Positions 10,164-30,054 of a stretch of DNA of 36,582 bases are shown here, one piece after another. The stretch is from a virus. Numbering within the stretch: position 1 is the stretch's first letter; each line of letters opens with the position of its first letter. The position numbers and the translations under genes are program-made. The notes beneath the pieces were generated by a model. That model made no database searches. It worked only from the letters and a program-made list of their open reading frames with translations, and was not told the origin of the DNA. Where the stretch lies: positions 1 to 36,582 of the IMG/VR virus record IMGVR_UViG_3300034523_000299, one strand, 5' to 3'.

Positions 10164-10183
10164 TCTTTAAACCTGATTAAAAG
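10164..10183 (+). promoter_or_regulatory. Late-block element, copy 1 (lysis block)
   Basis: TCTTTAAACCTGATTAAAAG is the first of four near-identical 20-bp elements in the window. It lies in the gap ahead of the lysis genes. The halves CTTTAAACC and CTTTTAATC (reverse complement of the right half) agree at seven of nine positions, giving dyad symmetry. A hexamer GATCAT starts 20 bases after it and fits a weak -10. I infer an activator site of a late promoter. Confidence 0.72.
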
Positions 10184-10194
10184 AACTCCTGCTG

Positions 10195-10218
10195 CACGCC
10201 GCCGATCATGGCGGCGTG
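10195..10218 (+). repeat. Inverted repeat ahead of the lysis genes
   Basis: CACGCCGCC, loop GATCAT, then GGCGGCGTG: a perfect nine-base-pair GC-rich stem. It is followed by TTCGTTTCC, too poor in T for a confident terminator. It could end the lysogenic transcript or form the 5' hairpin of the late lysis mRNA. The putative late -10 is exactly the loop. Confidence 0.6.
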
Positions 10219-10267
10219 TTCGTTTCCGGTGCCCACATCCAGTGGCGCCGAACCAGCAGGAGGCGCC

Positions 10268-10735
10268 ATGCGACCCAACTCTCCACGCGGCATCCGCAAT
10301 TACAACCCCGGCAACATCCGCCATGCCCCAGGCACCCGCTGGCAGGGCATGTCGGCCAATCAGAATGATGCTTCATTCGTCCAGTTCACCGGCCCCCAGT
10401 GGGGTATTCGGGCCATCGCTCGCACCCTGATCACCTACCAGGACAAGCATGGTCTGCGCACCGTCCGCCTGATCATCAGCCGCTGGGCGCCCCCCAACGA
10501 GAACAACACTGAGAGTTACATCCGTCAGGTCGCTGGCCGTGTGGGTGTATCGCCTGACGCCCGTATCGACGTGTACGACTACCGCACGATGAAGGTGCTG
10601 GTGGAGGCGATCATCCGGCATGAGAACGGCTCTGGCCCGTTGGCTGAGGGCAACTGGTACGGCGACTCGTTGATCAATGAAGGCCTGCACCTGGCCGGGA
10701 TCATCCCCGATGCCTACCACGGGGAGCAGGTATGA
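10268..10735 (+). CDS. Probable muralytic enzyme (endolysin-type)
   Basis: A 155-residue protein of the family that starts RGIRNYNPGNIR, often labelled phage structural protein and probably lysozyme-like. Conserved-looking features are the N-terminal NPGNIR block, FVQFTGPQWGIRAIARTLIT (about 36-55), a WAPPNENNTESYI segment and a RHENG motif (about 117-121) whose glutamate could be catalytic. ATG 10268 is chosen for its AGGAGG ribosome site 10258-10263; the frame is open to 10208. The stop overlaps the holin start as ATGA. Being first in the lysis cassette supports a cell-wall-cutting role. The alternative is a virion-associated lysozyme. Confidence 0.72.
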   Translation: MRPNSPRGIRNYNPGNIRHAPGTRWQGMSANQNDASFVQFTGPQWGIRAIARTLITYQDKHGLRTVRLIISRWAPPNENNTESYIRQVAGRVGVSPDARIDVYDYRTMKVLVEAIIRHENGSGPLAEGNWYGDSLINEGLHLAGIIPDAYHGEQV

Positions 10736-10950
10736 AGCTGATCGACAACTGCCACTGCTGCTGGAAACTCCACAGCGTCCAGCTCGCCATCGTCATCGCG
10801 CTGCTCGGCCTCATCCAGGCCACCATCCTGCCCATGTGGGAGGCGCAGCTTTCTCCCGCGACCTACGCGCTAATCAACAGCGTGCTGGCCGTGCTGCTGT
10901 TCCTCGCTCGTCTGGTGAAGCAGCCCGTTGAGCAAGGGGGCACGGCATGA
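10732..10950 (+). CDS. Holin-like membrane protein
   Basis: A 72-residue protein with two hydrophobic segments, about 17-34 (VQLAIVIALLGLIQATIL) and 43-60 (TYALINSVLAVLLFLARL), and a short polar tail: the layout of a class II holin or pinholin. Holins open the inner membrane at the set time so that the muralytic enzyme reaches the wall. It overlaps the endolysin-type gene at the start and the next gene at the stop, both as ATGA, so the cassette is translated together. Confidence 0.82.
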   Translation: MKLIDNCHCCWKLHSVQLAIVIALLGLIQATILPMWEAQLSPATYALINSVLAVLLFLARLVKQPVEQGGTA

Positions 10951-11135
10951 GGCTGCTGACTCGGCTGTTCACCCACCTGTTGAGCTTGTTGCCGAACGTC
11001 CTCATCCGGCCGGGTGCGGCGAGCTGGTACGGGCCAGCTCCCTTGCGTATGTCCCGCTCCGGAAAGTCCGGCGTTGCCGCTGCACGCCGGGCTGCGCGGA
11101 AGGCACGCAACCGTCGGAGGGCTCGCCGTGCTTGA
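10947..11135 (+). CDS. Small, very basic lysis-cassette protein
   Basis: A 62-residue protein that I do not recognise. The first 22 residues are hydrophobic with arginines (MRLLTRLFTHLLSLLPNVLI), and the last 25 are almost wholly arginine, lysine and alanine. It starts in an ATGA overlap with the holin and ends eight bases into the Rz-like gene. It may be a small membrane or nucleic-acid-binding protein. Position and overlaps on both sides support translation. Confidence 0.62.
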   Translation: MRLLTRLFTHLLSLLPNVLIRPGAASWYGPAPLRMSRSGKSGVAAARRAARKARNRRRARRA

Positions 11136-11736
11136 GCGCCTGACCACTCCCTTACCGTCCGGTTTGGTGCTGGGCCTGTTGGCTTGCCTGGTCTGTGGCG
11201 CTGCTGGTGCCGGCCTTGGCTACGGCTTCGGCTATCGCAACGCCGAGGCACTGGGCAAAGCCGATTTGGCCAACCTGAAAAGCCAGCACGCCGAGCAACG
11301 CGCTGCTGCGGCTAAGGACAGCCTGGAGCAGCTGCAGGCGCAGATCTCCCGCGCAAACCAGGTTGACCAGGAGCTGCAGCAGACCAAGCAGCGGCTCACC
11401 GACGCCCAACAAAAGCTCCAGGAGCGAATCCCCGATGTCACGACCGTCTACCTGCCAGGGCCTGCTGCCACGCCTACTGCTATCCCTCGTTGCGTGTTCA
11501 CTGCTGGCTGGGTGCGCGACTTCAACCTTGCCCTCGGAGGCTCCCCTGTGCGAGCCAGCACCGCGAGCGCCAACACCGCCGTCCCTGATGGAGCCGCCTG
11601 GCCCACCCCCGGTGCTGCAGAAGAACTACTGGAAAGCGGGGTCACCCCCGCAGACATCCTTGCCTTTGCCCAGGACTACGGTCGTTGGGCGCTGGGAATC
11701 CGTGCCCAACTCGTCGCGTTTCAGCGTAAGGAATGA
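11128..11736 (+). CDS. Rz: Inner-membrane spanin (Rz-like)
   Basis: A 202-residue protein with one N-terminal membrane segment (about 12-34, VLGLLACLVCGAAGAGLGYG) followed by a long periplasmic coiled coil rich in A, Q, K and E (about 40-105). This is the layout of Rz spanins, which join with Rz1 to fuse the inner and outer membranes in the last step of lysis. The start is GTG 11128, with GGAGG at 11116-11120; the open frame reaches further upstream through the preceding gene. It contains the Rz1 gene in the +1 frame from 11435. Confidence 0.82.
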   Translation: MLERLTTPLPSGLVLGLLACLVCGAAGAGLGYGFGYRNAEALGKADLANLKSQHAEQRAAAAKDSLEQLQAQISRANQVDQELQQTKQRLTDAQQKLQERIPDVTTVYLPGPAATPTAIPRCVFTAGWVRDFNLALGGSPVRASTASANTAVPDGAAWPTPGAAEELLESGVTPADILAFAQDYGRWALGIRAQLVAFQRKE

Positions 11737-11752
11737 CCGCATATGGATGTAG
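11435..11752 (+). CDS. Rz1: Outer-membrane spanin lipoprotein (Rz1-like)
   Basis: A 105-residue lipoprotein encoded in another frame inside Rz. A signal peptide with the lipobox LLAGC places the lipidated cysteine at residue 27. The mature part is proline-rich (PRAPTPPSLMEPPGPPP), as in Rz1 proteins. The ATG at 11435 has AGGAG about 12 bases upstream. Rz1 would sit in the outer membrane and bind the Rz coiled coil. It runs 16 bases past Rz and overlaps the start of the DksA-like gene. At 105 residues it is longer than lambda Rz1. Confidence 0.82.
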   Translation: MSRPSTCQGLLPRLLLSLVACSLLAGCATSTLPSEAPLCEPAPRAPTPPSLMEPPGPPPVLQKNYWKAGSPPQTSLPLPRTTVVGRWESVPNSSRFSVRNDRIWM

Positions 11753-11961
11753 CTGATCTGGCACAAGACAACGACTTCACCGAAGCGGCATTGCACGCAC
11801 ACCAGTCCGGCGTACAGCGCCGCTCCGGCCCCTCGGCCTACCGCTGCGAAGAATGCGGTGATGCGATCCCGGAAGCACGCCGGCAGGCCGAACCCGGCAC
11901 CGATCTCTGCGTTGAGTGCAAAACCACCCTGGAGCAACTGACCAAGCGGGGCTTGCGATGA
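11743..11961 (+). CDS. TraR/DksA-type zinc-finger protein
   Basis: A 72-residue protein with the four-cysteine zinc finger of TraR/DksA proteins: CEEC at about 35-38 and CVEC at about 56-59, with GDAIPEARRQA between. Small phage TraR-like proteins can bind RNA polymerase in its secondary channel and change promoter use, mimicking DksA with ppGpp. It starts within the end of Rz1 and its stop overlaps the next gene as ATGA. Mu-like and P2-like phages often carry it near the lysis/packaging junction. Confidence 0.88.
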   Translation: MDVADLAQDNDFTEAALHAHQSGVQRRSGPSAYRCEECGDAIPEARRQAEPGTDLCVECKTTLEQLTKRGLR

Positions 11962-12251
11962 ACCTGAACGAACTCGACTTCGGTTTCCAAACTGTGCAGT
12001 GGGTGGTGGTCACCGTCATCGGTATTTACACCTGGATGACCAATCGCCAGGCCGCCAGTGCCCAGGAGATGCTGGAGCTACGCACCCGCATCGTGGCCCT
12101 GGAGGAGCGCATCCGACACTTGCCGGACCACGCTGCAATCACCGAACTGCTCGGCGACATGAAGGCCGTCAGGGCTGAACTGGTCGCCATGCAGGGCCTG
12201 ACCCGAGCGGTGGACCGAATCAATGACTATCTGCTGCGAGAGAAAGCATGA
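11958..12251 (+). CDS. DUF2730 protein (Mu gp25-like)
   Basis: A 97-residue protein with one N-terminal hydrophobic segment (about 13-27, TVQWVVVTVIGIYTWM) and a long charged helix (35-95). It matches the DUF2730 family found just before the small terminase of Mu-like phages. The role is unknown. ATG 11958 overlaps the DksA-like stop as ATGA; the frame is open to 11916. The stop overlaps the next start similarly. Confidence 0.82.
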   Translation: MNLNELDFGFQTVQWVVVTVIGIYTWMTNRQAASAQEMLELRTRIVALEERIRHLPDHAAITELLGDMKAVRAELVAMQGLTRAVDRINDYLLREKA

Positions 12252-12541
12252 CCCAATATTCCGAGTTCCTGCGCCAGGACATGCGCCTGGTGATCCTGCG
12301 CTTGCTGGTAGAGATGCCGGCCTACCGAGCCAATAGCTCGGTGCTCAATGCTGCCCTGGACAACTACGGGCACAGTGTCAGCCGTGACCAGGTCAAGACC
12401 GAGCTGCAGTGGTTGTCTGAGCAAGGTGCGGTGTCGCTGGACGATATCGGTCCAGTGCTGGTGGCCACCTTGACCGAGCGCGGCCAGGATATTGCGGCTG
12501 GCCGTGCCCGTGTTCCTGGCATCAAGCGTCCGGGGGCCTGA
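12248..12541 (+). CDS. Mu gp26-like protein
   Basis: A 97-residue protein with a winged-helix look: helices RLVILRLLVEMPAYRANSSV and VSRDQVKTELQWLSEQG, then strands around VLVATLTERGQDIA. It resembles the gp26-type proteins of Mu-like phages found between gp25 and the small terminase. The exact role is unknown. It starts ATGA-coupled to the DUF2730 gene and ends two bases ahead of the DUF3486 gene. Confidence 0.8.
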   Translation: MTQYSEFLRQDMRLVILRLLVEMPAYRANSSVLNAALDNYGHSVSRDQVKTELQWLSEQGAVSLDDIGPVLVATLTERGQDIAAGRARVPGIKRPGA

Positions 12542-12543
12542 CC

Positions 12544-13095
12544 ATGGCGGGTAAATCCTCCATCAACCGTCTGCCCCCTATGGTCAAGGCGTACATCCAG
12601 AAGCTGTTGCGCGATGACCGGATGACCCTGGATGAGATGCTGGAGGACATCCGCCGTCGCTTCCCCAACGAAAAGGCGCCCAGCCGCAGCGCTCTGGGCC
12701 GTTTCAAGGTGGGTTTCGAGCAGCTCACCGAGAAGGCACGGCAGACCCGTGAGCAGGCCGAAGCCTTCGTCGGCGCCCTGGGCGAGGATGCCAGTGACAA
12801 GACTGGAGCCTTGCTGGTCGAGGCCATCTCGACCCTGACCTACCAGGCCGCACTGGGCGCCCATGAAAACGACGACGTCACCATCAAGGAGGTGGCCACC
12901 CTGGCCCGTGCCGCCAAGGCCACCATGGAAGCCCGGACCCTCAGCGTCAAGGAACGCCAGGCCATCGAGAAAGCTGCCCGTGAACGCCTGCTCCAGGAGC
13001 AAGCTGCCGAGCTGGACAAGGAGGTCCGCAGCGGTGGCATGGATGAAGAGCAGGCCCTGTTCTGGCGACAGAAGTTCCTCGGGGTGAAGGTATGA
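12544..13095 (+). CDS. Small terminase subunit-like protein (DUF3486)
   Basis: A 183-residue protein of the DUF3486 family (Mu gp27). It opens SSINRLPPMVKAYIQKLLRD and continues with a helix-turn-helix-like stretch MTLDEMLEDIRRRFPNEKAP, then long charged helices. In Mu-like phages it lies before the large terminase and is thought to recognise the phage end for packaging. The stop overlaps the large-terminase start as ATGA-type coupling. Confidence 0.88.
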   Translation: MAGKSSINRLPPMVKAYIQKLLRDDRMTLDEMLEDIRRRFPNEKAPSRSALGRFKVGFEQLTEKARQTREQAEAFVGALGEDASDKTGALLVEAISTLTYQAALGAHENDDVTIKEVATLARAAKATMEARTLSVKERQAIEKAARERLLQEQAAELDKEVRSGGMDEEQALFWRQKFLGVKV

Positions 13096-14711
13096 GCCAG
13101 CCAACCGTGAAGCCCAGCACCAGCACGCTGCGCGTTGTGGAATGGGATGAGCTGCCGGAGTCGGTACGTACGATCCCGGATGGCTACAACCCCATCACCG
13201 AAGGTCTGCTGATGGCGCACCAGGCTGACTGGCTGGCCATCAACGCGCAAATCAAGCTCTGTGAGAAAGGTCGCCGTACCGGCATCACCTTTGCTGAAGC
13301 TCTGGACTCGGTAATCACCGCTGCCTCCCGCAAGAGCGCAGGCGGCATGGACGTGTTCTACGTCGGCGACACCAAGGAAAAGGGCCTGGAGTTCATCGGC
13401 TACTGTGCCAAGTTCTCCCGCGTGATCGCCGAGGCCCAGGCTTCGGGTGTCAGTGAGATCGAGGAGTTCCTGTTCGAGGACCAGGACGAGTCGGGCAACA
13501 CACGCCAGATCAACGCCTATCGCATCCGCTACGCCTCGGGCTTCAAGGTCGTCGCACTGTCGAGCAACCCTGCGAACCTGCGCGGTCTGCAGGGCAAGGT
13601 GATCATCGACGAGGCGGCCTATCACCGAAACGTCTCCGCCGTGCTCGATGCCGCGACCGCGCTGCTGATCTGGGGTGGTCGCATCGTCATCATCAGCACC
13701 CACAACGGCAAAGCCAACGCCTTTAACCAGATGATCGCCGACATCCAGGAAGGCCGGTATGGCGATGCTGCTGTGGTCTACAAGGCCACCTTCGATGATG
13801 CAGTAGCCAATGGGCTGTACGAGCGGCGCTGCATGATGCGTGGCGAGGCGCCCACGGCAGAAGGCAAGGAGGCTTGGTACAAGTCCATCCGCAACGCCTA
13901 CGGCCCGCGCAAGGCGCAGATGCGCGAGGAACTGGACGCCATTCCGCGTGACGGCAATGGCGTGTGCGTGCCTGGCGTGTGGATCGAAGACGCCATGCGT
14001 CCAGATCGCCAGGTATTGCGCCTGGCCCTCGACGAAAGCTTCACCCAGCAGGCGCTCTATCGTCGCGAGGCCTATGTCGAAACTTGGATCGAGCCGCACC
14101 TGCTGCCGCTGCTGCAGCAACTCGACCCGGAGTTGCGCTGGTTCCTGGGGATGGACTACGCCCGGCACCGCGACTTTTCGATCATCTGTCCCATGTCGGT
14201 CGATCAACAGCGTCACCGAGATGTGCCCTTCGTCGTGGAGATGCACAAGGTTCCGACGCGCCAACAGCAGCAGGTGTTATTCACCATCCTGCGTGCACTG
14301 CCGAACTTCATGGGCGCCGCCCTGGACGCCTCCGGTAACGGCGAAACCCTTGCCGAAGATACTGCAGACGAGTTCGGTCACGAACGCATTCACCAGGTGA
14401 AGCTGTCGCGGGCCTGGTATGGCGCCTGGATGCCGCGCTTCGTGGGCCTGTTCGAGGACGGCACGATCACGCTGCCAAGAGATGACTCGCTGCAGCAGGA
14501 CATCCGCGCTATCGAAACCGTCGATGGCATCCCGATGATCGTCAAAGCCCGTCAGCAAGACCTCAAGGACCCGGAACTCTATCGTCACGGTGACTTCGCC
14601 GGCGCTGGTGTCCTGGCCACCTTCGCCACCTTGGAGGCAGCTTCCGGTCCCGTCATTGTCAAGTCCCGCCGTCGCAGAACGATGGCCCGCATTACTCAGG
14701 GGTACGCATGA
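13092..14711 (+). CDS. Terminase large subunit (Mu gp28-like)
   Basis: A 539-residue DNA-packaging motor. The ATPase part shows a Walker A-like KGRRTGIT (59-66), Walker B VIIDEAAY (170-177) and the coupling motif ISTHNG (201-206). The nuclease part begins with FLGMDYARHRDFS around D355 and has later acidic residues (GAALDASGNG), fitting the RNase H-like nuclease that cuts the packaged DNA. The protein should dock on the portal encoded next and package by headful with host DNA at the end, as in Mu. Start and stop overlap the neighbouring genes by four bases. Confidence 0.93.
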   Translation: MSQPTVKPSTSTLRVVEWDELPESVRTIPDGYNPITEGLLMAHQADWLAINAQIKLCEKGRRTGITFAEALDSVITAASRKSAGGMDVFYVGDTKEKGLEFIGYCAKFSRVIAEAQASGVSEIEEFLFEDQDESGNTRQINAYRIRYASGFKVVALSSNPANLRGLQGKVIIDEAAYHRNVSAVLDAATALLIWGGRIVIISTHNGKANAFNQMIADIQEGRYGDAAVVYKATFDDAVANGLYERRCMMRGEAPTAEGKEAWYKSIRNAYGPRKAQMREELDAIPRDGNGVCVPGVWIEDAMRPDRQVLRLALDESFTQQALYRREAYVETWIEPHLLPLLQQLDPELRWFLGMDYARHRDFSIICPMSVDQQRHRDVPFVVEMHKVPTRQQQQVLFTILRALPNFMGAALDASGNGETLAEDTADEFGHERIHQVKLSRAWYGAWMPRFVGLFEDGTITLPRDDSLQQDIRAIETVDGIPMIVKARQQDLKDPELYRHGDFAGAGVLATFATLEAASGPVIVKSRRRRTMARITQGYA

Positions 14712-16219
14712 GCAACAAAGGCGTGTGGGTCAGCCCCACCGAGTTCGTCACCTTCGCCGAGGCCAAGCGTGACAAGAGCCTCACCGACCATATCGCCAGC
14801 CGAGGCCGCAGCTTCGACGCCCAGGCACTGGGCATGTATCTGCCCAACCCGGACCCGATCCTCAAGGCCCAGGGCAAGGACATCAAAGTCTATCGCGACC
14901 TGCGCAGCGCCGCCCTGGTCGGCGGGAACATCCGGCGTCGCAAGTCGTCGGTGCTTGCCTTGGAACGGGATCTGAAGCGAGCCAAGGCACCGGTTCGCGT
15001 CGAGCGGTTCATTCGAGATTGGCTGACTGACCTGGATCTGGACCGTATCGTCCGTGAGTTGCTCGATGCTCCGCTGTTCGGATACCAGCCGGTTGAACTG
15101 ATGTGGAAACCTGTAGGGTTGAACCTGGTACCTGAGGATCTCTTGGGAAAGCCAGCCGAATGGTTCCTGTACGACCAGGACAACCAGCTACGCTTCCGTG
15201 CCCGCGATGCCGGCATCCAGGGCGAGTTGTGCGATCCACAACGCTTCGTCGTGGCTCGCCAGGACGCTACCTACAACAACCCCTATGGCTTCGCGGATCT
15301 CTCCATGTGCTTCTGGCCGGTAGTGTTCATGAAGGGCGGCATGAAGTTCTGGGTACAGTTCACCGAGAAGTACGGCAGCCCATGGCTGATTGGTAAACAC
15401 CCACGCGGGGCGTCGACCAAGGAAACCAATGATTTGTTGGATAGCCTTGAAGGGATGGTCCAGGACGCGGTGGCGGTCATACCGAATGATTCCAGTGTCG
15501 AGATCAAGGAAGCGGCCGGCAAGACCGGCAGTGCCGATGTCTACCGTGAACTGCTGATGTACTGCCGCAGTGAGATCAACGTGGCCCTGTTGGGTCAGAA
15601 CCAGACGACGGAAGCAGAGGCGAACCGTGCCAGCGCCCAGGCCGGTTTGGATGTCACCGAGGACATCCGCGATGGTGATGCCAGCATCGTAGCGGCAACG
15701 CTAAATGCGGTCATTCGCCGTGTGGTAGATCTCAACTTCGGAGAGAACGTCGACGCCCCCGTGTACGAACTGTGGGAGCAGGAGCAGATCGACAAGGCCT
15801 TGGCCGAGCGCGACAAGTCGCTGACCGAGTCTGGCGTCAGGTTCACCATGGCCTACTGGCAACGAACCTACAACCTGCAGGATGGCGATATCGAGATCGC
15901 CCCCGTACCGGCTGCTATTCCCACCGAAGCCTCGGCCGAGTTCGCTGAACCTGCCATACGCCCGGTGTTGGACCAGCATGCCCTGGACCAGGCCATCGCC
16001 GGCCTGGCCCCTGTGGATCTCCAGCAGCAGGCCGGACAAGCATTGCTGCCAGTGATCGAGGCCCTGCAGAAAGGCCGTGATGAGACCGAGGTCTTGGGTC
16101 TGCTGGCTGAAACCAGTCCTGATCTCGATGCGAAAGCCCTGCAGGAGGTTCTGGCCAGGCTGATCTTCATGGCGAATCTGTGGGGTCGCCTGAGCGCAGC
16201 AGCGGATCTGGAGGACTGA
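14708..16219 (+). CDS. Portal protein (DUF935, Mu gp29-like)
   Basis: A 503-residue protein of the Mu-type portal family. Family features include VSPTEFVTFAEAKRDKSLTD at the start, the FGYQPVELMWKP segment, and the long helical part with EANRASAQAGLDVTEDIRDG (about 300-330). Portals form the dodecameric ring through which DNA enters and to which the tail attaches. It overlaps the terminase stop by four bases and is followed by the F-type head gene after two bases. Confidence 0.92.
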   Translation: MSNKGVWVSPTEFVTFAEAKRDKSLTDHIASRGRSFDAQALGMYLPNPDPILKAQGKDIKVYRDLRSAALVGGNIRRRKSSVLALERDLKRAKAPVRVERFIRDWLTDLDLDRIVRELLDAPLFGYQPVELMWKPVGLNLVPEDLLGKPAEWFLYDQDNQLRFRARDAGIQGELCDPQRFVVARQDATYNNPYGFADLSMCFWPVVFMKGGMKFWVQFTEKYGSPWLIGKHPRGASTKETNDLLDSLEGMVQDAVAVIPNDSSVEIKEAAGKTGSADVYRELLMYCRSEINVALLGQNQTTEAEANRASAQAGLDVTEDIRDGDASIVAATLNAVIRRVVDLNFGENVDAPVYELWEQEQIDKALAERDKSLTESGVRFTMAYWQRTYNLQDGDIEIAPVPAAIPTEASAEFAEPAIRPVLDQHALDQAIAGLAPVDLQQQAGQALLPVIEALQKGRDETEVLGLLAETSPDLDAKALQEVLARLIFMANLWGRLSAAADLED

Positions 16220-16221
16220 CC

Positions 16222-17680: not shown

Positions 17681-17700
17681 TCTTTAAACCCGATTAAAAG
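17681..17700 (+). promoter_or_regulatory. Late-block element, copy 2 (protease/capsid block)
   Basis: TCTTTAAACCCGATTAAAAG, identical to copy 4 and differing by one base from copies 1 and 3. It sits 58 bases ahead of the protease ATG. The hexamer CACGCT begins 20 bases after it, in the loop region of a short GCAC/GTGC inverted repeat (17720-17730); as a -10 it is weak, keeping only A at position 2 and T at position 6. It is also followed at once by a CCCGG...CCGGG pair (about 17702-17720). Confidence 0.72.
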
Positions 17701-17758
17701 CCCCCGGTCGTAAGTCCGGGCACGCTGTGCGCATCCTCACTCGATCAGCGCCCAGCTC

Positions 17759-18859
17759 ATGAAACCACTGCACATTTTCAAGTCCGGCAAGCACGTCGCC
17801 ATGAGTGGTGGCAGCTTCGACTTCAGCGAATCCGACTTGGCCGCCACCGTGCGCGCCTATGACCCAGCGTTGCACGAAGCGCCCTTGGTGATCGGCCACC
17901 CGAAGCACGACGCTCCTGCTGCTGGGTGGGTCCAGTCGCTTGCCACTGGCGCCGATGGATTGGTCGCAACCCCTGCTCAGGTCGATCCCGCGTTCGCTGA
18001 AATGGTGGAAAAGGGCAGCTTCAAGAAGATCTCCGCTTCGTTCTATCACCCCGACTCGCCGAACAACCCGGTGCCGGGCGTGTACTACCTGCGCCATGTC
18101 GGTTTCCTCGGTGCTCAGCCGCCAGCTGTGAAGGGACTGCGCCCCGTCGAGTTCGCTGACGGCGAGGAAGGCATCGTCGAGTTTGCTGACTATGGCCACG
18201 AAACCAGTGCCTCCCTCTGGCGCCGTCTGCGGGATTGGTTGATCGGTGAACGCGGCCTGGAAGTCGCTGACCAGATCATTCCCGACTGGCAGATCAACAG
18301 CCTTGGTGAGGCCGCCCGCCGTGATGACGAGCCGCGCCCATCCTTTTCCGACCCAACCCCACCCGTAACCGTCGAGGAATCCACCGTGACCCCCGAAGAA
18401 ATCGCCGCCATGCAGGCGGAAAACAAGCGCCTCCAAGGAGTGGTGCAACAGCACCAGGAAGAAAAACGCCAATCCCAGCAGGCATCCATCCACTCAGCCA
18501 ACGTCGCGTTCGCCGAAGAGTTGATCAGCGCGGGCAAGCTGCTGCCAAAGCACAGTGCTGCGTTGGTGGCAGCTCTCGACTTCGCCGAGTCGGGTGCCAC
18601 GCCACTGGAGTTCGGCGAGGGTGATGCCCGACAGCCCGTCGTCGCCGGCCTGAAGGCGATCTTCACCGATCTGCCCAAACAGATCGACTTCGCCGAGAAA
18701 GCCAGCAAGGAACGCCACGGTGCTCACGGCCAGCCAGTGGACCTGGAGTTCGCCGAGAAGAACACCGACCCCGACCGTCTCCAACTGCACCAGCGCGCCA
18801 CAGCCCTGGCTGCCGAGAAAAACATTCCTTACGAGTCGGCCATCCGCCAACTCATCTGA
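17759..18859 (+). CDS. I: Prohead protease (Mu gpI-like)
   Basis: A 366-residue protein of the Mu I protease family. The first 200 residues form the protease part: IFKSGKHVAMSGGSFDFSES, the HPKHDAPAAGWV segment (about 43-54) and KKISASFYHP (about 89-98), whose serine and histidines are candidate catalytic residues. The C-terminal part from about 210 is a charged, glutamine-rich scaffold region that can also be made on its own. The protease trims scaffold and capsid during head maturation. It is the first gene after late element copy 2. Confidence 0.9.
   Translation: MKPLHIFKSGKHVAMSGGSFDFSESDLAATVRAYDPALHEAPLVIGHPKHDAPAAGWVQSLATGADGLVATPAQVDPAFAEMVEKGSFKKISASFYHPDSPNNPVPGVYYLRHVGFLGAQPPAVKGLRPVEFADGEEGIVEFADYGHETSASLWRRLRDWLIGERGLEVADQIIPDWQINSLGEAARRDDEPRPSFSDPTPPVTVEESTVTPEEIAAMQAENKRLQGVVQQHQEEKRQSQQASIHSANVAFAEELISAGKLLPKHSAALVAALDFAESGATPLEFGEGDARQPVVAGLKAIFTDLPKQIDFAEKASKERHGAHGQPVDLEFAEKNTDPDRLQLHQRATALAAEKNIPYESAIRQLI
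18386..18859 (+). CDS. Z: Internal scaffold protein (Mu gpZ-like, nested)
   Basis: An in-frame internal start, GTG 18386, preceded by GAGGAATCCACC, would give a 157-residue protein equal to the end of the protease gene (VTPEEIAAMQAENKRLQGVV...). In Mu, gene Z is the scaffold made from an internal start in I, with the same coiled-coil character. The second candidate start, ATG 18410, lacks a ribosome site. The call rests on the visible start signal and the known Mu I/Z arrangement. Confidence 0.62.
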   Translation: MTPEEIAAMQAENKRLQGVVQQHQEEKRQSQQASIHSANVAFAEELISAGKLLPKHSAALVAALDFAESGATPLEFGEGDARQPVVAGLKAIFTDLPKQIDFAEKASKERHGAHGQPVDLEFAEKNTDPDRLQLHQRATALAAEKNIPYESAIRQLI

Positions 18860-19806: not shown

Positions 19807-20259
19807 ATGGCAGCCAAGAAAAAAGCTCAAGAGCAGGCGAACGAGCAACCCGGTCAGATTGACCAGGCAGACCAGGTTGACCAAGTGGACCCGGTTGAGC
19901 AGGCAGATCAGCTCGACCAAGCCGGCCCGGTTGACCAGGCAGACCAGGTCGACCAAGCCAGCCAGGTTGACCAGGCATTGGACACGCCAGCCAACGGCCC
20001 AGCGCCGACACCTGATCTTGGCAATGGCTCCGATGGCACCGGCAATCCGAAACCAGGTGAAGGCGCTTCAGGTAGCTGGCTGGGATCTGTGGCAGCGGAC
20101 GAAGACCTCCAAAAGCGCCCATACCTGGTCACGGGACTCATTGACGTACGGCATGACGGTGAGCTGTACACCAAGGGCGAAACCCTCTGGCTCTATCAGT
20201 TCAGTGCGACGCCGTTGTTGAACAAACTCTACATCACCCCGAAGGAAGGCCAACAATGA
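19807..20259 (+). CDS. Head protein with 12-residue DQ repeats
   Basis: A 150-residue protein. Residues 18-58 are an extreme low-complexity tract of Asp, Gln, Val and Ala made of three full 12-residue repeats with core DQADQVDQ and part of a fourth. A Gly/Pro/Asn linker (about 60-90) and a compact C-terminal domain (about 95-150, KRPYLVTGLIDVRHDGELYT) follow. The C-terminal domain resembles small head proteins placed between capsid and decoration genes. It could be a capsid accessory protein with a flexible exposed tether. The ATG follows the capsid stop by eight bases. Confidence 0.78.
   Translation: MAAKKKAQEQANEQPGQIDQADQVDQVDPVEQADQLDQAGPVDQADQVDQASQVDQALDTPANGPAPTPDLGNGSDGTGNPKPGEGASGSWLGSVAADEDLQKRPYLVTGLIDVRHDGELYTKGETLWLYQFSATPLLNKLYITPKEGQQ
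19858..19980 (+). repeat. 36-bp tandem repeat (3.4 copies)
   Basis: Three head-to-tail 36-bp units (19858-19893, 19894-19929, 19930-19965) and a part unit (19966-19980) inside the preceding gene. Each unit is built from nine-base blocks of the form GACCAGGCA/GACCAGGTT. The copies differ at several bases but keep the reading frame. Such arrays change length by slippage or recombination, so copy number may vary between related phages. Confidence 0.88.
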
Positions 20260-23647: not shown

Positions 23648-23657
23648 CCTGAGTGGA

Positions 23658-23677: not shown

Positions 23678-23688
23678 CATGGAAGCAT

Positions 23689-23710: not shown

Positions 23711-23713
23711 CGT

Positions 23714-23908
23714 TTATTCGGACTTGCGGAACAGTGCGTTGACATAGCCCCGCAGGTGATTCCTTGCAGTAGATTCCGGGTACATCCCATTCAGCGTGGT
23801 TTCTCTCGTCGTGCCATCCGGCAGATACACGATCAGCTCGTCCCCCAGCACGCTGTAGGTGGCCGAGTAGGTCACCCCCTCGCGTTCCCACGTTACTTCT
23901 TCGTCCAT
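23714..23908 (-). CDS. Small leftward gene in the tail region, unknown
   Basis: A 64-residue protein of unknown function encoded against the tail genes. It looks strand-rich (VTYSATYSVLGDELIVYLPD), then has a helical end (ESTARNHLRGYVNALFRKSE). A strong ribosome site, GAGGAGGTACAT, stands directly ahead of the ATG on the minus strand. The stop is next to a bidirectional terminator. Late element copy 3 lies 16 bases upstream of its start and could serve it as well as the tail genes. It may be a lysogen-expressed gene or a late regulator. Confidence 0.75.
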   Translation of the reverse strand: MDEEVTWEREGVTYSATYSVLGDELIVYLPDGTTRETTLNGMYPESTARNHLRGYVNALFRKSE

Positions 23909-23924
23909 ATGTACCTCCTCAGCA

Positions 23925-23944
23925 TCTTTAAACCGGATTAAAAG
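23925..23944. promoter_or_regulatory. Late-block element, copy 3 (tail assembly block)
   Basis: TCTTTAAACCGGATTAAAAG, between the leftward gene at 23714-23908 and the tail chaperone at 24010. In the plus direction the hexamer GATGCT begins 21 bases after it, with A and T at the key -10 positions, inside an interrupted inverted repeat (ATGCTT...AAGCAT, with GGG/CCC inside, about 23967-23994). It is the only copy flanked by divergent genes. Confidence 0.72.
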
Positions 23945-24009
23945 CCAAGCCTGCCACCCAGACGCGATGCTTAGGGCTCATTCCCACCAAGCATTCTGGA
24001 GCAACGAAC

Positions 24010-24324
24010 ATGGCTGAAGCCATCCACATTCCTCTCAAGTTTCCCTTCACCACGGCAGCAGGTGCGTTTCTGGACAAACTGCCAATTCGCCGCCCCAAGC
24101 GCAAGGACATCGCCGCAGGCCAGCGGCAGGCAGCGGATGAAGCTGGGCTCGAAGACTACCTGGTTGCAAAGATGACAGGCCTTACCCTGGAAGATCTGGG
24201 TGAACTCGACATCGCTGACTCGAAAACCGTGTCTGCGGTGTTTCGGGAGTTGGCTAGCGGCGGAGACGGTTCTCAGGAGCTGGGACGAAGCGCTGCTCCT
24301 GGTGCTGAGAATGCAGCCGAGTGA
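24010..24324 (+). CDS. E: Tail assembly chaperone, upstream part (gpE-like)
   Basis: A 104-residue protein of the P2 E / Mu gp41 type, which chaperones the tape measure protein. It has a strand-rich first third (IHIPLKFPFTTAAGAFLDKL), RRPKRKDIAAGQRQAADEAG and then a helix GLEDYLVAKMTGLTLEDLGE. The last 26 residues are low-complexity and probably seen only when no frameshift occurs. The overlapping second frame (to 24427) is expected to be joined by ribosomal frameshifting. Confidence 0.85.
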   Translation: MAEAIHIPLKFPFTTAAGAFLDKLPIRRPKRKDIAAGQRQAADEAGLEDYLVAKMTGLTLEDLGELDIADSKTVSAVFRELASGGDGSQELGRSAAPGAENAAE

Positions 24325-24427
24325 GATTGCCAGGCTGGAGATGGAGGAGTACTGGCGATGGTGCGAGGTGTGTGAGCGCGAGATCAACCGTCGGATCGAG
24401 GCTGCCGAGCAGCTGAAACAACGATAG
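24242..24427 (+). CDS. E': Tail chaperone frameshift extension (gpE'-like)
   Basis: This frame is +1 (or -2) relative to E and carries an E'-like end: MQPSEIARLEMEEYWRWCEV and a charged helix EREINRRIEAAEQ. Such chaperone pairs in P2 and Mu are made by programmed frameshifting. A candidate site is TTT CGG at 24241-24246, where tRNA-Phe on UUU can move +1 to UUC. Shifting there gives a 138-residue fusion. A free start at ATG 24311 has no clear ribosome site. The exact shift position is not established. Confidence 0.7.
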   Translation, partial: FGSWLAAETVLRSWDEALLLVLRMQPSEIARLEMEEYWRWCEVCEREINRRIEAAEQLKQR

Positions 24428-24641
24428 CTACCAGCCCCGCCAATATCCCCAGCACCAAAGCGCCACCCGCTGCCACAGGGGTGGCCACCAGGGCCAACAA
24501 CGGCAGGCCCACACAGAAAGCCACAATCGCAACCCAGAACGAGAGGTTGGCTAGGCATAGCCAGACGAGCGCAAGTATCCCCATGGCCATGACCAGTGCA
24601 TAGAGGGTGCGAGCGGTGCGAGTGGCAATAATTTCAAACAT
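24384..24641 (-). CDS. Three-helix membrane protein, leftward, unknown
   Basis: An 85-residue protein read leftward in the gap between the tail chaperone and the tape measure gene. Three hydrophobic segments are clear: about 14-30 (LYALVMAMGILALVWLC), 34-53 (SFWVAIVAFCVGLPLLALVA) and 58-77 (AGGALVLGILAGLVAIVV). Its end overlaps the E' frame by 44 bases. No strong ribosome site is visible, which lowers confidence. It fills an otherwise empty 237-base gap and is divergent from the tape measure gene. It could be a lysogen membrane gene such as an exclusion factor; this is inference. Confidence 0.58.
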   Translation of the reverse strand: MFEIIATRTARTLYALVMAMGILALVWLCLANLSFWVAIVAFCVGLPLLALVATPVAAGGALVLGILAGLVAIVVSAARQPRSDG

Positions 24642-24664
24642 GATTGCAGCGTAGCAAATAACCT

Positions 24665-27283
24665 ATGGCGAACGAAGTCCTGGTTGGATTGAAGATCGGC
24701 GGCGTCGTATCGGGCAGCCTGCATGCCGCCTTTGGTTCAGCGAAATCCACGGTGCAACAGCTTGGGCGGGCTACCGACGGCCTCACTTCTAAGCAGAAAC
24801 AGCTTGGCACTGAGCTTTCTGCCGCACTGGCGCGGGGTGGTACTGGCATTGGTCGTATGCGCCTGCAATACGACCAGGTCGGCCGGACCATCGATCAACT
24901 GAAGGCCAAGCAAGAGCGCCTGAATACCAGCATCGCGCGTGGCGAAACCCTCAAGTCCGCACGTGGCGAGCTGCGCGGGCAGTTTATGGAGACCGCGGGT
25001 ACTGGTGCGGCCTTGGGCGCTCCGGTCGCACTCGCCGCACGCACAGCCATCGACTTCAAGGACCGGACCAACGACATCGCCATCACGGGTGGCTTCGATG
25101 CGGCTGAAGAACTGCGTCTAGGTGAGGTACTCAGGAGTTCAGCTCTGAAGTGGAACCAGACCCAGTTGGAGGTTGCCGCAGGCGCCCAGGTGCTGATTGC
25201 GGGGGGTGTTTCAAACGTCAAGGAATTGGAGGCCTATGCGCCTCTCATGGCCAAGTTTGCAACGGCCACACGTGCCAGCATGGATGACCTCGGTTCTGTC
25301 GCTATAGCTTTGAACGATAATCTCGGTATTGGGGCGTCTGGATTTGAGCGCTCCATGAACATGCTCGCTTCTGCAGGCAAGCAGGGCCAGTTCGAGCTGG
25401 CTGATATGGCCAAATGGCTGCCGCAGTTGACCCCTCAATTCGCCGCTCTTGGAATCACTGGTGAGCGTGCGGTCGCAGAGATCGGTGCGTCTCTTCAAAT
25501 TGCTCGGCGTGGCGCGGGGACCAACGACGAAGCTGCCAACAACTTCAAGAACTTCCTTTCAAAATTGACTGCCAAGGACACCCTTAAGTCTTTTGAAGGT
25601 GCTGGCATTAATCTCCAAGACGCAATGACAAATCTGGTTGGCAAAGGCCTTACACCAGTCCAGGCAATGCTTGAGGTGATTACCCAGTACGTTGGAAGTA
25701 AGGGGCCGAAAGCTACTGGAGAGTTCCAGAAGGCTATGGCCATAAAGGATGATGCCGAGCGTGAAATTGCGCTGAAGCGCTTGAACGAGGCTTACAAGCT
25801 CGGCGAGCTGTTCGCTGACATGCAGGTGCTTTCGTTCGTTCGGCCAGCTATGGCCAATCGCGAAGACCTGAGTGGAATCCAGAAAACCAGTATTGCAGAC
25901 GCCGACAAGGGAGTTGGCGATGCAGACTGGAAAAAGCGCATGGAGAGCCCCAAAGAGCAGCTCAAGGCGCTGACCATCAACTTGTCAGAGCTTGGAATCA
26001 CGGTCGGCAGCGTTCTATTGCCAGCCCTTGTTGATGTCACCCAAGCAGCGATTCCATTGGTCCAGGGCTTCGCAACTTGGGCCGGTGAGAACCCCGTCCT
26101 GGTGAAGTCTGTCATTGGTCTGGTCGGCGGCTTGTTAGCGGGTAAATTGGCTTTCATTGGCCTGGCCTACGGTGCCAACCTGGTTATGTCACCGTTCGTG
26201 GCAATGACGACTACCGTCACTTCGCTGTCGTCCAAGTGGACCCTGCTTCGTGCCATGTGGCAGATGGGCAAGTTTGTCCCCCTGATCACTGGGCTGACCC
26301 GCATAGGATCAGGGATCGCCACAGTGTTGCGCTTCACCGGCTCATTCATGCGCGGCATCGTAATGGCGTTCGGCGCTCCGCTCATGATGGCGGCTCGCGG
26401 TGTATTGATGCTGGGCAAGGTCCTGGGCGGCACCTTGCTGTTCGGGTTGAAGCTGGCAGGCCAGGCCGTGCTCTGGCTCGGTCGGGCGCTGATGATGAAC
26501 CCCATCGGCCTGGCTGTGACGGCCATCGCCTTGAGCGCCTATCTGATCTATCGCTATTGGGAGCCCATCAAGGGCTTCTTCAGTGGCTTGTGGGATAGGG
26601 TCAAAGGTCTCTTCAGTGGTGGTCTCTCAGGCATCGCTGGACAGATCATCAACTTCAGTCCGGTGGGCCTGTTCTACCGCGCCTTCGCAGGAGTGATGAG
26701 CTATTTCGGTATTGAGCTGCCGGGCAAGTTCACCGAGTTTGGCGGCAACATCATCAGCGGCCTTGTTGCTGGTATCAGCAACGCACTCAGCTCAGCGAAA
26801 GAATCTGTCCTGGGCATCGGCACGTCGATTAAAGGTTGGTTTACCGAAACCCTCGGTATCCAGTCGCCAAGTCGGGTGTTCATGGGATATGGCGCGAACA
26901 TCAGTGAGGGAGCGGCAATCGGCATTGCTTCGGAAGCCGACCTGGTTCGCCAGGCCGCGCTCGGTATGGCCGGACAAACTGCCGTAGATCTGGCCGCTCC
27001 GAAGATCCCGCCGTTATCAGCGGTCGCGTCGCCTGCAGAGCGCTTGCCGCCGAGCCCGGAAGCCATATCGATGGCCAGCAGAATGGGCAATGCAGATCCA
27101 GGCGCCGCTCAGGCAGGTTCAGGTGGCGGAATGGTCGTCCATTACTCGCCAAGCATCGTCGTACCACCAGGTGCGCAGGCACAAGTAGGGCAAGCCCTGC
27201 AGATGAGCTACGCGGAATTTGCTCGATTTATGGAGCGCTTTCACCACGACCAGGAGCGCCGCAGTTATGGAGGGCGTAAGTAA
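24665..27283 (+). CDS. T: Tail tape measure protein
   Basis: An 872-residue tape measure protein of the P2 T / TP901 type, which sets tail length and is ejected ahead of the DNA. An N-terminal coiled coil (about 25-105) is followed by the conserved region with ITGGFDAAEELRLGEVLRSS and LNDNLGIGASGFERSMNMLA (about 130-290). Several hydrophobic segments follow (about 480-640). A C-terminal block contains GIQSPSRVFMGYGANISEGA. The final 100 residues are proline/alanine-rich. It is the largest gene here and starts 24 bases from the leftward membrane gene. Its TAA overlaps the next ATG by one base. Confidence 0.93.
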   Translation: MANEVLVGLKIGGVVSGSLHAAFGSAKSTVQQLGRATDGLTSKQKQLGTELSAALARGGTGIGRMRLQYDQVGRTIDQLKAKQERLNTSIARGETLKSARGELRGQFMETAGTGAALGAPVALAARTAIDFKDRTNDIAITGGFDAAEELRLGEVLRSSALKWNQTQLEVAAGAQVLIAGGVSNVKELEAYAPLMAKFATATRASMDDLGSVAIALNDNLGIGASGFERSMNMLASAGKQGQFELADMAKWLPQLTPQFAALGITGERAVAEIGASLQIARRGAGTNDEAANNFKNFLSKLTAKDTLKSFEGAGINLQDAMTNLVGKGLTPVQAMLEVITQYVGSKGPKATGEFQKAMAIKDDAEREIALKRLNEAYKLGELFADMQVLSFVRPAMANREDLSGIQKTSIADADKGVGDADWKKRMESPKEQLKALTINLSELGITVGSVLLPALVDVTQAAIPLVQGFATWAGENPVLVKSVIGLVGGLLAGKLAFIGLAYGANLVMSPFVAMTTTVTSLSSKWTLLRAMWQMGKFVPLITGLTRIGSGIATVLRFTGSFMRGIVMAFGAPLMMAARGVLMLGKVLGGTLLFGLKLAGQAVLWLGRALMMNPIGLAVTAIALSAYLIYRYWEPIKGFFSGLWDRVKGLFSGGLSGIAGQIINFSPVGLFYRAFAGVMSYFGIELPGKFTEFGGNIISGLVAGISNALSSAKESVLGIGTSIKGWFTETLGIQSPSRVFMGYGANISEGAAIGIASEADLVRQAALGMAGQTAVDLAAPKIPPLSAVASPAERLPPSPEAISMASRMGNADPGAAQAGSGGGMVVHYSPSIVVPPGAQAQVGQALQMSYAEFARFMERFHHDQERRSYGGRK

Positions 27284-28161
27284 TGTTCGCTGTGCTCGGA
27301 AAAATAGAGTTCGAAGTTGCAGGCGGATTTACCGGTTTAGAGCAGCGCGGCTCAGCCAATTGGGCTGAGCACAATCTGATCCAGGGCAAGCCGTTGCTTG
27401 AATGGGGCGGGGAAGGCCTTGATGAACTGACGTTCACCATGGCGTTGCATCCGTGGCTCGGCGACCCCGAGACGCAACTGCGTACTCTGCGGGAAGCGAA
27501 GAGCAAGCATGATCCGTTGGCGTTTGTTCTCGGAAGCGGTAAGTACGTCGGCAACTTCGTTGTCGTCGACATCAACAATACGCTGAGACGCACATCGGCC
27601 GATGGGCGTACCTACGCCACTGATGTTCAGATCAGCTTGAAAGAGTATGCCGGGCCATTTACGCCGAAGGTTCCTCGGCCTGGTCTGATCGATCCTGCCA
27701 CCGCAACAACTGCGATGGCCACGCTCTCCCCAACGTTGGTATCGAAGCTTGCCCCAGTGCTGACCGCAGCTCAAAAAGCGCTTGGCTATGCGCGCCAGGC
27801 CGGGACAATGATTGGATCGGCGAAAGAGATTTACGATGCGGTGAGGAACACAAGTCCAGCAATGCTGCTTGCCCGAGCACCGCAGCTGGTCGGCGTAACC
27901 GAGCGGGTACTGGGTCCAATCAAAGGGTTTTCGGAAGCGGCGAGCTTGCTCAGCGATGGCAACGACCTGGTGCAGTTGGGGCAGCAGATGTTTAGCGATA
28001 TCACCAATGCCAAGTCGAGCCTCAATCTACTTGATATCGATAACGTAGTAAGCCGCTTCGAAAACTCCGGCCGCTACATTTCGCAGGCCTACGACAAGTT
28101 CGATGATGCCTCAACTCGCTTGTCTGGCCTGGCTGCGAAAGTCATTACCAGGAGAGCGTGA
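27283..28161 (+). CDS. U: Tail protein U with long C-terminal extension
   Basis: A 292-residue protein. The first 135 residues match P2 gpU: MFAVLGKIEFEVAGGFTGLE, WAEHNLIQGKPLLEWGGEGL, LHPWLGDPETQLRTLREAKS and the GKYVGNFVVVDINNT strand. P2 U is about 160 residues; here a further helical region of about 150 residues follows, rich in alanine, serine and leucine. The U family helps to end the tail or attach its parts. It lies between the tape measure and X, as in P2. Confidence 0.88.
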   Translation: MFAVLGKIEFEVAGGFTGLEQRGSANWAEHNLIQGKPLLEWGGEGLDELTFTMALHPWLGDPETQLRTLREAKSKHDPLAFVLGSGKYVGNFVVVDINNTLRRTSADGRTYATDVQISLKEYAGPFTPKVPRPGLIDPATATTAMATLSPTLVSKLAPVLTAAQKALGYARQAGTMIGSAKEIYDAVRNTSPAMLLARAPQLVGVTERVLGPIKGFSEAASLLSDGNDLVQLGQQMFSDITNAKSSLNLLDIDNVVSRFENSGRYISQAYDKFDDASTRLSGLAAKVITRRA

Positions 28162-28367
28162 TGTTTCTGACCCACATCACAGTGGAGGGCGAGCGATGGG
28201 ACCAGTTGGCCTATCGGTACTACGGCGATGCCCACCGCTATCACCCCATTGTTGAAGCCAACCCGCACGTTCCAATTACCCGAGCTCTGCCGGCAGGCTT
28301 AAAGCTCGCTATCCCTGTACTTGAGCCTGTTGTATCGACAGAGGACTTGCCGCCATGGATGCTTTAG
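28161..28367 (+). CDS. X: Tail protein X (LysM-like)
   Basis: A 68-residue protein of the P2 X family, a LysM-like fold: GERWDQLAYRYYGDAHRYHP, then IVEANPHVPITRALPAGLKL. It links tail tube end and baseplate. Translation can begin at GTG 28158 or ATG 28161; the ATG is better spaced (six bases) from AGGAG 28150-28154. It overlaps gene D by 13 bases. Confidence 0.92.
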   Translation: MFLTHITVEGERWDQLAYRYYGDAHRYHPIVEANPHVPITRALPAGLKLAIPVLEPVVSTEDLPPWML

Positions 28368-29470
28368 TGCCAGACCAGGTCCCTGAGGCGCGCTTTGTTC
28401 TGACTTACCAGCAGCGCAATATCACACACGATGTCAGCAAGCACCTGACCTCCATCTCATATGCAGACAACCTGACCGGCCAGGCTGACTCGTTGGATGT
28501 TGAGCTGGAGGACACTGAGAGCAAATGGCTGGACGCTTGGTATCCGGGTCACGGTGATGCACTCGCTCTGTCGCTTGGCTGGGCGGGTAAGCCGCTACGG
28601 CAGTTGAGCCGCCTTGAGATCGATGAAGTGGACTTCAGCTCTGCGCCCACCACCGTTGCCATTCGAGCGCTTGCAACGGGCATCAATACGGCGCTACGAA
28701 CCACAGAACATAAGGCATACGAAAACACGACACTCGCGGCAGTGGCTCAGGAGATCGCCAAACGCCAGGGGTTGACGCTTATCGGTAGCATCGAGCCGAT
28801 CAAACTGGATCGTCTGACACAGCAGGAGTCCGATCTAGAGTTCTTGCGCAACCTGGCCGACGAATATGACTACGCCTTCAAAGTGACCGGCTCACGCCTT
28901 GTATTTCACGCTATCAGCGAGTTGGCGAAAGGTACGCCGGTTGCGAAGCTGTCGCTGAAGGACCTGAGCAGCGTGCGTTTGCGTGATCAGATCCGTACCG
29001 TGCCCCAAGCGGTAGCTGTGAAACACAAGGAGCCAGCCCAGAAGAAACTGATCTCCTACGACATAAAGAATGGCGAGACCGTTGCAGTGCCGAGTAGTGG
29101 CAGCGGCAAAACCACAAGCGGCGACACCAAAAAGCAACGCAGACGGGCAGCTTCAGAACAAGAGGCCAAAGCCAAGGCGAAAGCAGACTTGGCCAAATCC
29201 AATCGGGAACGCACAACGGGCAGCTGGTCAATGAGGGGGCAGCCTAACCTGGTCAGCGGCAACGTCGTTGCTCTGGTCGGTGCAGGTAAATTGAGTGGCA
29301 ACTATCTGATCCTGTCGGCCACCCATCGTATTGCCCGTGACGGCGGTTATACGGTTGAACTGAGCGTGTGTCGGGTCGCCGCACCATCGATCAAGCTGAC
29401 ATTTGAAAACAGCCAGCCCGACCTCGCGCTGGCTAACTACGGTTTTACTCAGGGCGAGGCCCTGGCCTAA
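28355..29470 (+). CDS. D: Late control D / baseplate hub protein
   Basis: A 371-residue protein of the phage late control D family (P2 D, T4 gp27-like hub). Landmarks are ITHDVSKHLTSISYADNLTG, the WYPGHGDALALSLGW block and the middle ITxQESD-type sequence DRLTQQESDLEFLRNLADEY with DYAFKVTGSRLVFH. A charged lysine/alanine-rich insertion lies at about 255-295. The end has GSWSMRGQPNLVSGNVVALV. The hub joins the tail tube to the spike. Confidence 0.92.
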   Translation: MDALVPDQVPEARFVLTYQQRNITHDVSKHLTSISYADNLTGQADSLDVELEDTESKWLDAWYPGHGDALALSLGWAGKPLRQLSRLEIDEVDFSSAPTTVAIRALATGINTALRTTEHKAYENTTLAAVAQEIAKRQGLTLIGSIEPIKLDRLTQQESDLEFLRNLADEYDYAFKVTGSRLVFHAISELAKGTPVAKLSLKDLSSVRLRDQIRTVPQAVAVKHKEPAQKKLISYDIKNGETVAVPSSGSGKTTSGDTKKQRRRAASEQEAKAKAKADLAKSNRERTTGSWSMRGQPNLVSGNVVALVGAGKLSGNYLILSATHRIARDGGYTVELSVCRVAAPSIKLTFENSQPDLALANYGFTQGEALA

Positions 29471-29479
29471 GGGGCATCA

Positions 29480-30031
29480 ATGAGCATCGAGCTGGAGTAT
29501 GGTGAGGTAAGCGCTCTTGACTATCCCGGATGCCGCATTCGTGTCCGCCTGGATAGTCGGGATGGTGTCGAGAGTTATTGGCTGAGCGTTCCGCAACGCA
29601 ACACTCAGGGCACAACGCGACGGCCATTGCTGCCTGAACTGGGCGAGCAAGTGGCTGTGCTGCTCGATGGCGATGGCGTCGGCGGAGTGTATCTTGGTGG
29701 GGTGTATTCAACCGCCGAGCCGCCACCGGTCACTGATGAGAACACAGACTTTGTCCGGTTCAGTGATGGGACAACCATCACCTATGATCGAGAAGCCCAT
29801 GTGATGGCCCTAGACTGCGTCGGTGCAACCACTCTGAAGTGCGCTAAGAACCTCAATGTTGAGTGCGGTGAACCCGTCTTCGTGAAGGCGCCCAGCGCAA
29901 CGCTGGATATCCCGACGGTAACCACCACGGGCGACTTGGTCGTCGGCGGCAATGTTGCAGTGACGGGCAACATCGAAGCTGGCGGGACAATCATGGATAA
30001 GGGCGGCAACTCGAACAACCACAAGCATTGA
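29480..30031 (+). CDS. V: Baseplate spike protein V
   Basis: A 183-residue protein of the gpV/gp45 spike family. The N-terminal OB-like fold covers YGEVSALDYPGCRIRVRLDS and the block RPLLPELGEQVAVLLDGDGV. A repetitive beta region follows (about 110-170, TTTGDLVVGGNVAVTGNIEA). The protein ends NNHKH; an HxH at the spike tip is known to hold a metal ion (iron in P2 V), and HKH fits that. It pierces the outer membrane. It closes the block headed by copy 3. Confidence 0.92.
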   Translation: MSIELEYGEVSALDYPGCRIRVRLDSRDGVESYWLSVPQRNTQGTTRRPLLPELGEQVAVLLDGDGVGGVYLGGVYSTAEPPPVTDENTDFVRFSDGTTITYDREAHVMALDCVGATTLKCAKNLNVECGEPVFVKAPSATLDIPTVTTTGDLVVGGNVAVTGNIEAGGTIMDKGGNSNNHKH

Positions 30032-30034
30032 TCC

Positions 30035-30054
30035 TCTTTAAACCCGATTAAAAG
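30035..30054 (+). promoter_or_regulatory. Late-block element, copy 4 (baseplate/fibre block)
   Basis: TCTTTAAACCCGATTAAAAG starts three bases after the V stop and is identical to copy 2. The hexamer CAATAT starts 21 bases after it and would be a weak -10. That hexamer is in the loop of a long hairpin, 30063-30095. It probably drives W, J, I and the fibre genes. Confidence 0.72.

Follow-up and report, generated by a model that had tools for sequence, protein, structure and literature searches.

The window analyzed here, the virus record IMGVR_UViG_3300034523_000299 at its full length of 36,582 bases, contains four copies of a 20-base pair (bp) element, TCTTTAAACCNGATTAAAAG, each of them ahead of a block of late genes. 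Very probably, the phage's only activator of the Mor family binds this element and thereby acts on four late promoters. An earlier note on this DNA had made the same claim (that the element is the operator of the only Mor-type protein and marks the late regulon), which our sequence analysis supports, by inference, as the best reading. The features that carry it are the four sites themselves, their conservation, a −10-like hexamer at a fixed distance, the lack of a −35 hexamer, and the presence of one Mor gene in each record of at least 33 kilobases with multiple copies of the element.

The window combines leftward early genes, encoding Mor, GemA, and transposition functions, with rightward late genes. 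The Mor-type activator (PF08765) is encoded on the minus strand at 1..366, at the far end of the early genes, and adjoins the GemA gene (363-812). It matches the Mor and C chains of Mu in the PDB, and it is the only PF08765 match in the window, as the earlier note had supposed. The element occurs at 10164-10183, 17681-17700, 23925-23944, and 30035-30054, always on the plus strand, and a scan of the window allowing up to 3 mismatches found no fifth copy. In dinucleotide shuffles of the window, the mean number of matches was 0.01, and four copies were seen in 0 of 100 shuffles. The scan and these shuffles thus bear out the notion of four copies in one orientation, each preceding a late block. 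All four copies are intergenic, between late genes. Taken together with a classification of sites by downstream gene, they can be described as predicted Mor-type operators. Operator 1 (10164..10183), in the gap 10151/10268, precedes the lysis/packaging block, which starts with an ATG at 10268. Operator 2 (17681..17700; gap 17525/17759) precedes the protease/capsid/sheath/tube block, with protease I starting at 17759, and operator 3 (23925..23944; gap 23647/24010) lies ahead of tail gene E, which starts at 24010 and is followed by the tape measure gene. Operator 4 (30035..30054; gap 30031/30088) precedes the W/J/I/fibre block, in which W starts at 30088. The dyad symmetry proposed before, with seven of nine paired positions, is correct if its center is placed on the N. 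An alternative 16-bp frame, TTTAAACCNGATTAAA, is equally possible. Pasteurella phage AFS-2018a has four sites, and in two of them this frame is perfectly palindromic (TTTAAAGCGCTTTAAA); its length equals that of the Mor dyad of the Mu promoter Pm (PMC4287176).

The sequence that follows the element is that of a promoter. With offsets numbered so that the element begins at 0, 34 of 43 nonredundant contexts share a hexamer that has A at 41 and T at 45, which is shifted by one base (A42/T46) in 4 others; at other offsets, such a hexamer occurs on average in 1.4 of the 43. The five contexts that have no hexamer are three isolated matches outside Pseudomonas, the Mor-less record G043, and locus L152. 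In a larger collection of 252 unique sites, from which sites with less than 300/400 bases of flank were dropped, 242 could be assigned by their downstream protein to the lysis (60), I (65), E (53), or W (64) class, and 10 were unclassified. The expectation that relatives would have the same element ahead of the same gene blocks therefore holds for 242 of the 252 distinct sites. Every one of these 242 has the −10-like hexamer, at 41/45 in 234 and at 42/46 in 8, while the bases between element and hexamer vary with the class. No −35 is apparent, the best fit to TTGACA at the usual spacing being at most 3/6 in 42 of the 43 contexts. In the window, the −10-like hexamers on the plus strand are GATCAT for the lysis promoter (10204..10209), CACGCT for promoter 2 (17721..17726), and, each shifted by one base, GATGCT for promoter 3 (23966..23971) and CAATAT for promoter 4 (30076..30081). 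Their spacing predicts +1 positions at ~10216, ~17733, ~23978, and ~30088, the last being the A of the W start codon. With the dyad center at index 9.5-10 and the −10 beginning at index 40 or 41, the center precedes the start of the −10 by ~31 bp and is, if +1 is assumed to lie 7 bases past the hexamer, near −42. Mu Pm likewise lacks a −35 while having a −10, and its Mor-bound dyad spans −51 to −36, with the center at −43.5 (PMC4287176). The element thus has the appearance of an operator at a sigma-70 promoter that depends on an activator.

The exact sequence of the element was found in at least 117 stretches of IMG/VR, and a variant with T at position 9 in at least 120. Among GTDB genomes, it was found in 34 stretches, 31 of which are in Pseudomonas; the three in other genera have no −10, and the size of the collection leads us to estimate that about two matches would be expected by chance. 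We then examined two sets of records selected for carrying the element. In the first (32 records), each of the 20 that reach 34 kilobases (kb) contains one Mor gene and exactly four matches, all on the same strand, and the reversed element, used as a control, has no match in any of the 32. The 11 records of this set with no Mor gene are 13.6-30.6 kb long, and two of them (G010 and G021) carry four sites. In the second (28 records), 22 have four sites, G042 has five, and the other five have a single site. One Mor gene is present in each of these 23 records with four or five sites and in G060, and none in G043, G053, G054, and G056; single-copy carriers such as the last three encode no PF08765 activator. 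Altogether, 43 of the records examined reach 33 kb and carry four or five sites, and each of them has exactly one Mor gene. In a set picked instead by similarity to Mor (80 loci, counted by hand), 34 of the 54 loci on contigs of at least 30 kb have at least four matches; among the remaining ones, three matches are present in G001 (30.4 kb) and at most two in the other 19. A second PF08765 paralogue, as expected for C beside Mor, was seen neither in the window nor in any Mor-positive record examined, each having one match. As a side observation, the fifth copy in G042 (C1:24414-24433) is ~580 bases from another copy, and the site ahead of E is doubled in a similar way in L238.

These findings place the window close to, yet apart from, well-studied systems. 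As in Mu Pm (PMC4287176), there is a PF08765 activator, a 16-bp dyad over the place of the −35, a −10 with no −35, and a presumed use of host RNA polymerase, all predicted here from sequence. Unlike at Pm, where Mor serves a middle promoter, one Mor-type protein appears to serve four late promoters. In Mu, C activates the late promoters lys, I, P, and mom (PMC4461284), and the window likewise has four late promoters, including those for lysis and I, with predicted sites for the Mor/C family. However, no separate C was found here, and promoters 3 and 4 precede tail gene E and W rather than P and mom. The analogy with Mu drawn in the earlier note is therefore sound for the protein family and the number of late promoters, but not for the division of labor, which in Mu assigns middle transcription to Mor and late transcription to C, since a single PF08765 protein was found. 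In the B3-like phage Fc02, RNA-Seq after thermo-induction revealed an early operon with mor as its last gene, followed by three forward late clusters, the first beginning at holin-endolysin and the second consisting mainly of structural genes (PMC9936078). Fc02 resembles the window in this order of events and differs from it in having three clusters and a dyad of the TTTTCG...CCAAAA type. The portion of PMC9936078 available names no late promoter or operator for Fc02, nor exact cluster borders. In Pseudomonas phage Komp_PAO1_1 (PQ287647), the element occurs unchanged in the corresponding four gaps, although Mor is only 46.8% identical.

In diverged relatives, the layout of the promoter persists as its letters change. 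We scored 48 regions that precede lysis, I, E, and W genes in a set of 16 diverged phages or records. Of these regions, 30 score at least 13/19 (one, in G060, is exact) and the 18 under this threshold were left out. The hexamer is found at the same offset or one further in all 30, compared with 37 of 990 at other offsets. A de novo search for dyads, using gaps hand-picked from annotations and 40 shuffles per phage, revealed three dyads in B3 (of the ATTTTCGG...CGAAAAG type), three in JBD25, and four in AFS-2018a, with 0 of 40 shuffles as good in each case. These dyads have different letters and the same geometry as the promoters of the window, and the AFS-2018a hexamers (TATACT, TATTCT, TAAACT, and TAATAT) are near TATAAT. 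A search of Fc02 with the JBD25 pattern yields three sites: one at 11702, preceding holin, one at 20100, preceding protease I, and one at 25607, preceding the tape measure gene. YPCBV-1 and phiSHP3 yielded two-site elements only, which we regard as no more than leads. YPCBV-1, a Chromohalobacter phage, also has an annotated diversity-generating retroelement, with Avd and reverse transcriptase (L187 34205-35938).

We infer the binding by Mor, the start sites, the contact with polymerase, and the timing, which together would make up the following switch. After induction, the leftward early operon would yield Mor as its last product. A Mor dimer would bind the dyad at about −52 to −33, centered at ~−42, and would substitute for the missing −35 by recruiting the host sigma-70 RNA polymerase. 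Mor would thereby fire four rightward late units: lysis/packaging, head/sheath/tube, tape measure/tail, and baseplate/fibre.

Several observations weigh against Mor as the reader of the element. Two of the records mentioned above, G010 (30.6 kb) and G021 (25.2 kb), have four sites and no Mor match, although the genome arm expected to carry mor appears to be absent from them. KS10, whose own Mor match is under the family cut-off, has no shared dyad above shuffles in the hand-picked gaps (in the search for three sites, 15 of 40 shuffles did equally well). Some phages that have no PF08765 match contain a single instance of the element with its −10. Across 18 phages, the distance between elements correlates weakly with that between Mor proteins, with an r of 0.28 (p 0.066) for the helix-turn-helix (HTH) and 0.33 for the whole of Mor, values that drop to −0.34 and −0.16, respectively, when B3 and JBD25 are omitted. 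In the same 18 phages, the correlation is 0.69 for GemA and 0.77 for portal, and all ten late proteins tested are above Mor, with TnpA, TnpB, and DUF3164 being lowest (0.06-0.09), below Mor. The C or T state of position 9 also follows GemA (0.45) more than Mor (0.12), and the effect of the Mor HTH on it, given GemA, is 0.03 and not significant (p 0.18). HTH residues 93, 97, and 89 nevertheless rank high for association with this state. In 32 collapsed records, R97 goes with C in 10/10, N/A/D89 with no R97 goes mostly with T in 15/15, and 7 are mixed, but GemA distance is a better predictor. In one pair, G001 (C) and G049 (T), the 30-residue HTH stretch differs only at residue 89 and one other. 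Since lineage explains this association equally well, it is only suggestive, and position 9 was dropped as proof of reading by Mor because Mantel tests favor GemA and the late proteins. One reading of these data is that Mor evolves fast outside a few DNA-reading residues while the sites move with the late module. Separately, position 9 tends to be the same, C or T, across the four sites of a phage, as if co-evolving.

What else might read the element? GemA, which is encoded beside mor, or a GemA-Mor pair, would account for the better correlations of GemA, and GemA is present in 45 of the 52 records examined. However, we set GemA aside because no match to it was found in G057 or G059, both of which carry Mor and four sites. 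After mor, G057 has a small open reading frame (ORF) and then TnpB- and TnpA-like genes. Moreover, portal correlates as well as GemA, so lineage can account for the GemA correlation, and in Mu the dyads are bound by Mor and C (PMC4287176); we thus consider a role of GemA in reading the element quite improbable. Slightly less so, while still unlikely, is a different DNA-binding protein, either a host factor or another phage regulator. It would explain why phages with no PF08765 match have the element and its −10, upstream of a CII-type gene or in the vicinity of tail-tip genes, and the window does encode other regulators, such as a repressor-like protein (8446-8916). Nevertheless, the GTDB matches do not suggest a host regulon, since classifiable Pseudomonas sites except L152 are all late-class. 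The three matches in other genera have no −10, and the conserved geometry with other letters in B3, JBD25, and AFS-2018a points to a phage-borne reader. Finally, because the repeats are located at module borders, they might be recombination seams or a mobile repeat with no regulatory role. This idea is hardly credible, as the hexamer follows 20 bases on in 242/242 classified sites despite class-specific intervening bases and as the geometry is kept in diverged phages when the sequence is not. Mor is therefore the best-supported reader, on account of the class II position of the element with no −35, the presence of one site per late block, the co-occurrence with Mor, and the persistence of the element in two records with no GemA.

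In two of the four classes, the promoter is fused to neighboring features. An in-frame ATG of W is found 7 (56 sites) or 8 (8 sites) bases after the last base of the −10 in all 64 W-class sites, and a pattern search found no Shine-Dalgarno in any of them. This combination leads us to predict that the W mRNA is leaderless, with the start codon at 30088..30090 (plus strand) in the window. At least 58 of the 65 I-class sites also have no Shine-Dalgarno, but their ATG is mostly 31-36 bases on, and lysis-class sites mostly have one. By arithmetic on annotations, independently annotated starts agree with these positions for W in PhiKM (17272) and Komp_PAO1_1 (17480) and for I in Fc02 (20152). As a separate observation, the annotated protease I start is ~7 bases past a −10-like hexamer in Fc02 (L453 20152) and phiSHP3 (L183 19300), and it may be I rather than W that is leaderless in these two phages. 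In the lysis class, the −10 is the exact 6-base loop of a perfect 9-bp stem in 55 of 60 sites, with a few paired stem changes, such as CACACCGCC/GGCGGTGTG. In the window, this hairpin (10195..10218, plus strand) has a 9-bp stem and a 6-nucleotide (nt) loop formed by the lysis −10, is followed by TTCGTTT, and was called terminator-like (−21.4 kcal/mol, z −2.8). Since a transcript from ~10216 would not contain the 5′ arm, this structure might terminate transcription arriving from the repressor side and spare late transcripts.

The promoters in Mor-less phages are the main new point against an exclusive link with Mor. In one group (G053/L244, G056/L257, and L213), the element and a −10-like hexamer lie between lambda tail-I-like and gpJ-like tail-tip genes, the elements being at L244 1733-1752, L257 359-378, and near L213 3882. 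In another (G054/L249, L300, and L117; elements at L300 6565-6584 and L249 5146-5165, with relatives L454-L494), they precede the gene for a CII-type regulator (PF06892), which itself comes after a YdaS-like gene. Such single matches could have been dismissed as stray, which is true only of G043, since G053, G054, and G056 have the −10. A search for relatives of the CII-type protein in IMG/VR found 41 loci, of which 40 were usable and 37 distinct. The element scores 18 or 19 of 19, with A41/T45, in 11 of these 37; L491 scores 16/19 with the hexamer displaced by one base, and 25 score at most 11. Given this split between high and low scores, the promoter is either there in full or missing altogether. 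In the tail-tip group, it is present in 2 of 6 distinct relatives. None of the 16 Mor-less element records of the two groups has a PF08765 match. Either the Mor of a co-resident Mu-like phage acts across phages in these carriers or the element has another reader. It is a tentative and rather doubtful proposal that Mor would be a signal read across phages, with some temperate Mor-less phages having placed the CII-type regulator or the tail-tip genes under a Mor-type promoter and responding to the late program of a co-resident Mu-like phage, and that in Mu-like phages the same chassis would be fused to gene starts, with W leaderless from its AUG and the lysis −10 looped out by a hairpin resembling a terminator, from which late transcripts would escape by starting past its 5′ arm.

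Two other features of the window deserve mention. In the third of the four gaps, a 64-amino acid ORF on the minus strand (23714-23908), with an AGGAGG site, starts 16 nt from element 3, and a similar protein is found in the same place in several relatives (L013, L042, and L076). As a general feature of such promoters, this ORF was rejected, since any such ORF is present in only 17 of 53 E-class sites and in more (41 of 64) of the W-class sites used as a control. There are also 18-bp tandem repeats within a late ORF, at 19842-19977.

Among the papers listed for the element and for Mu-like late promoters, none describes the element, although a prior description in the B3 or D3112 genome papers is possible. 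As far as the open literature shows, three things are new: different hosts share this promoter chassis, the chassis is fused to a gene start and to a hairpin, and phages with no Mor also have it. The window seems to have a Mor-type late switch, a well-supported variant of the Mor/C system of Mu in which one protein serves all late promoters. This provides a late-promoter grammar for a large Mu-like group, which allows transcription units to be proposed from sequence in uncharacterized prophages. The natural pairs of Mor and site make the specificity of the activator testable with simple reporters, and a Mor-type promoter on the CII-type gene of Mor-less phages would make communication between co-resident prophages directly testable. 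Moreover, the finding that the predicted +1 coincides with an ATG in phages from several hosts would provide an unusually clear example of a structural gene with a leaderless mRNA.

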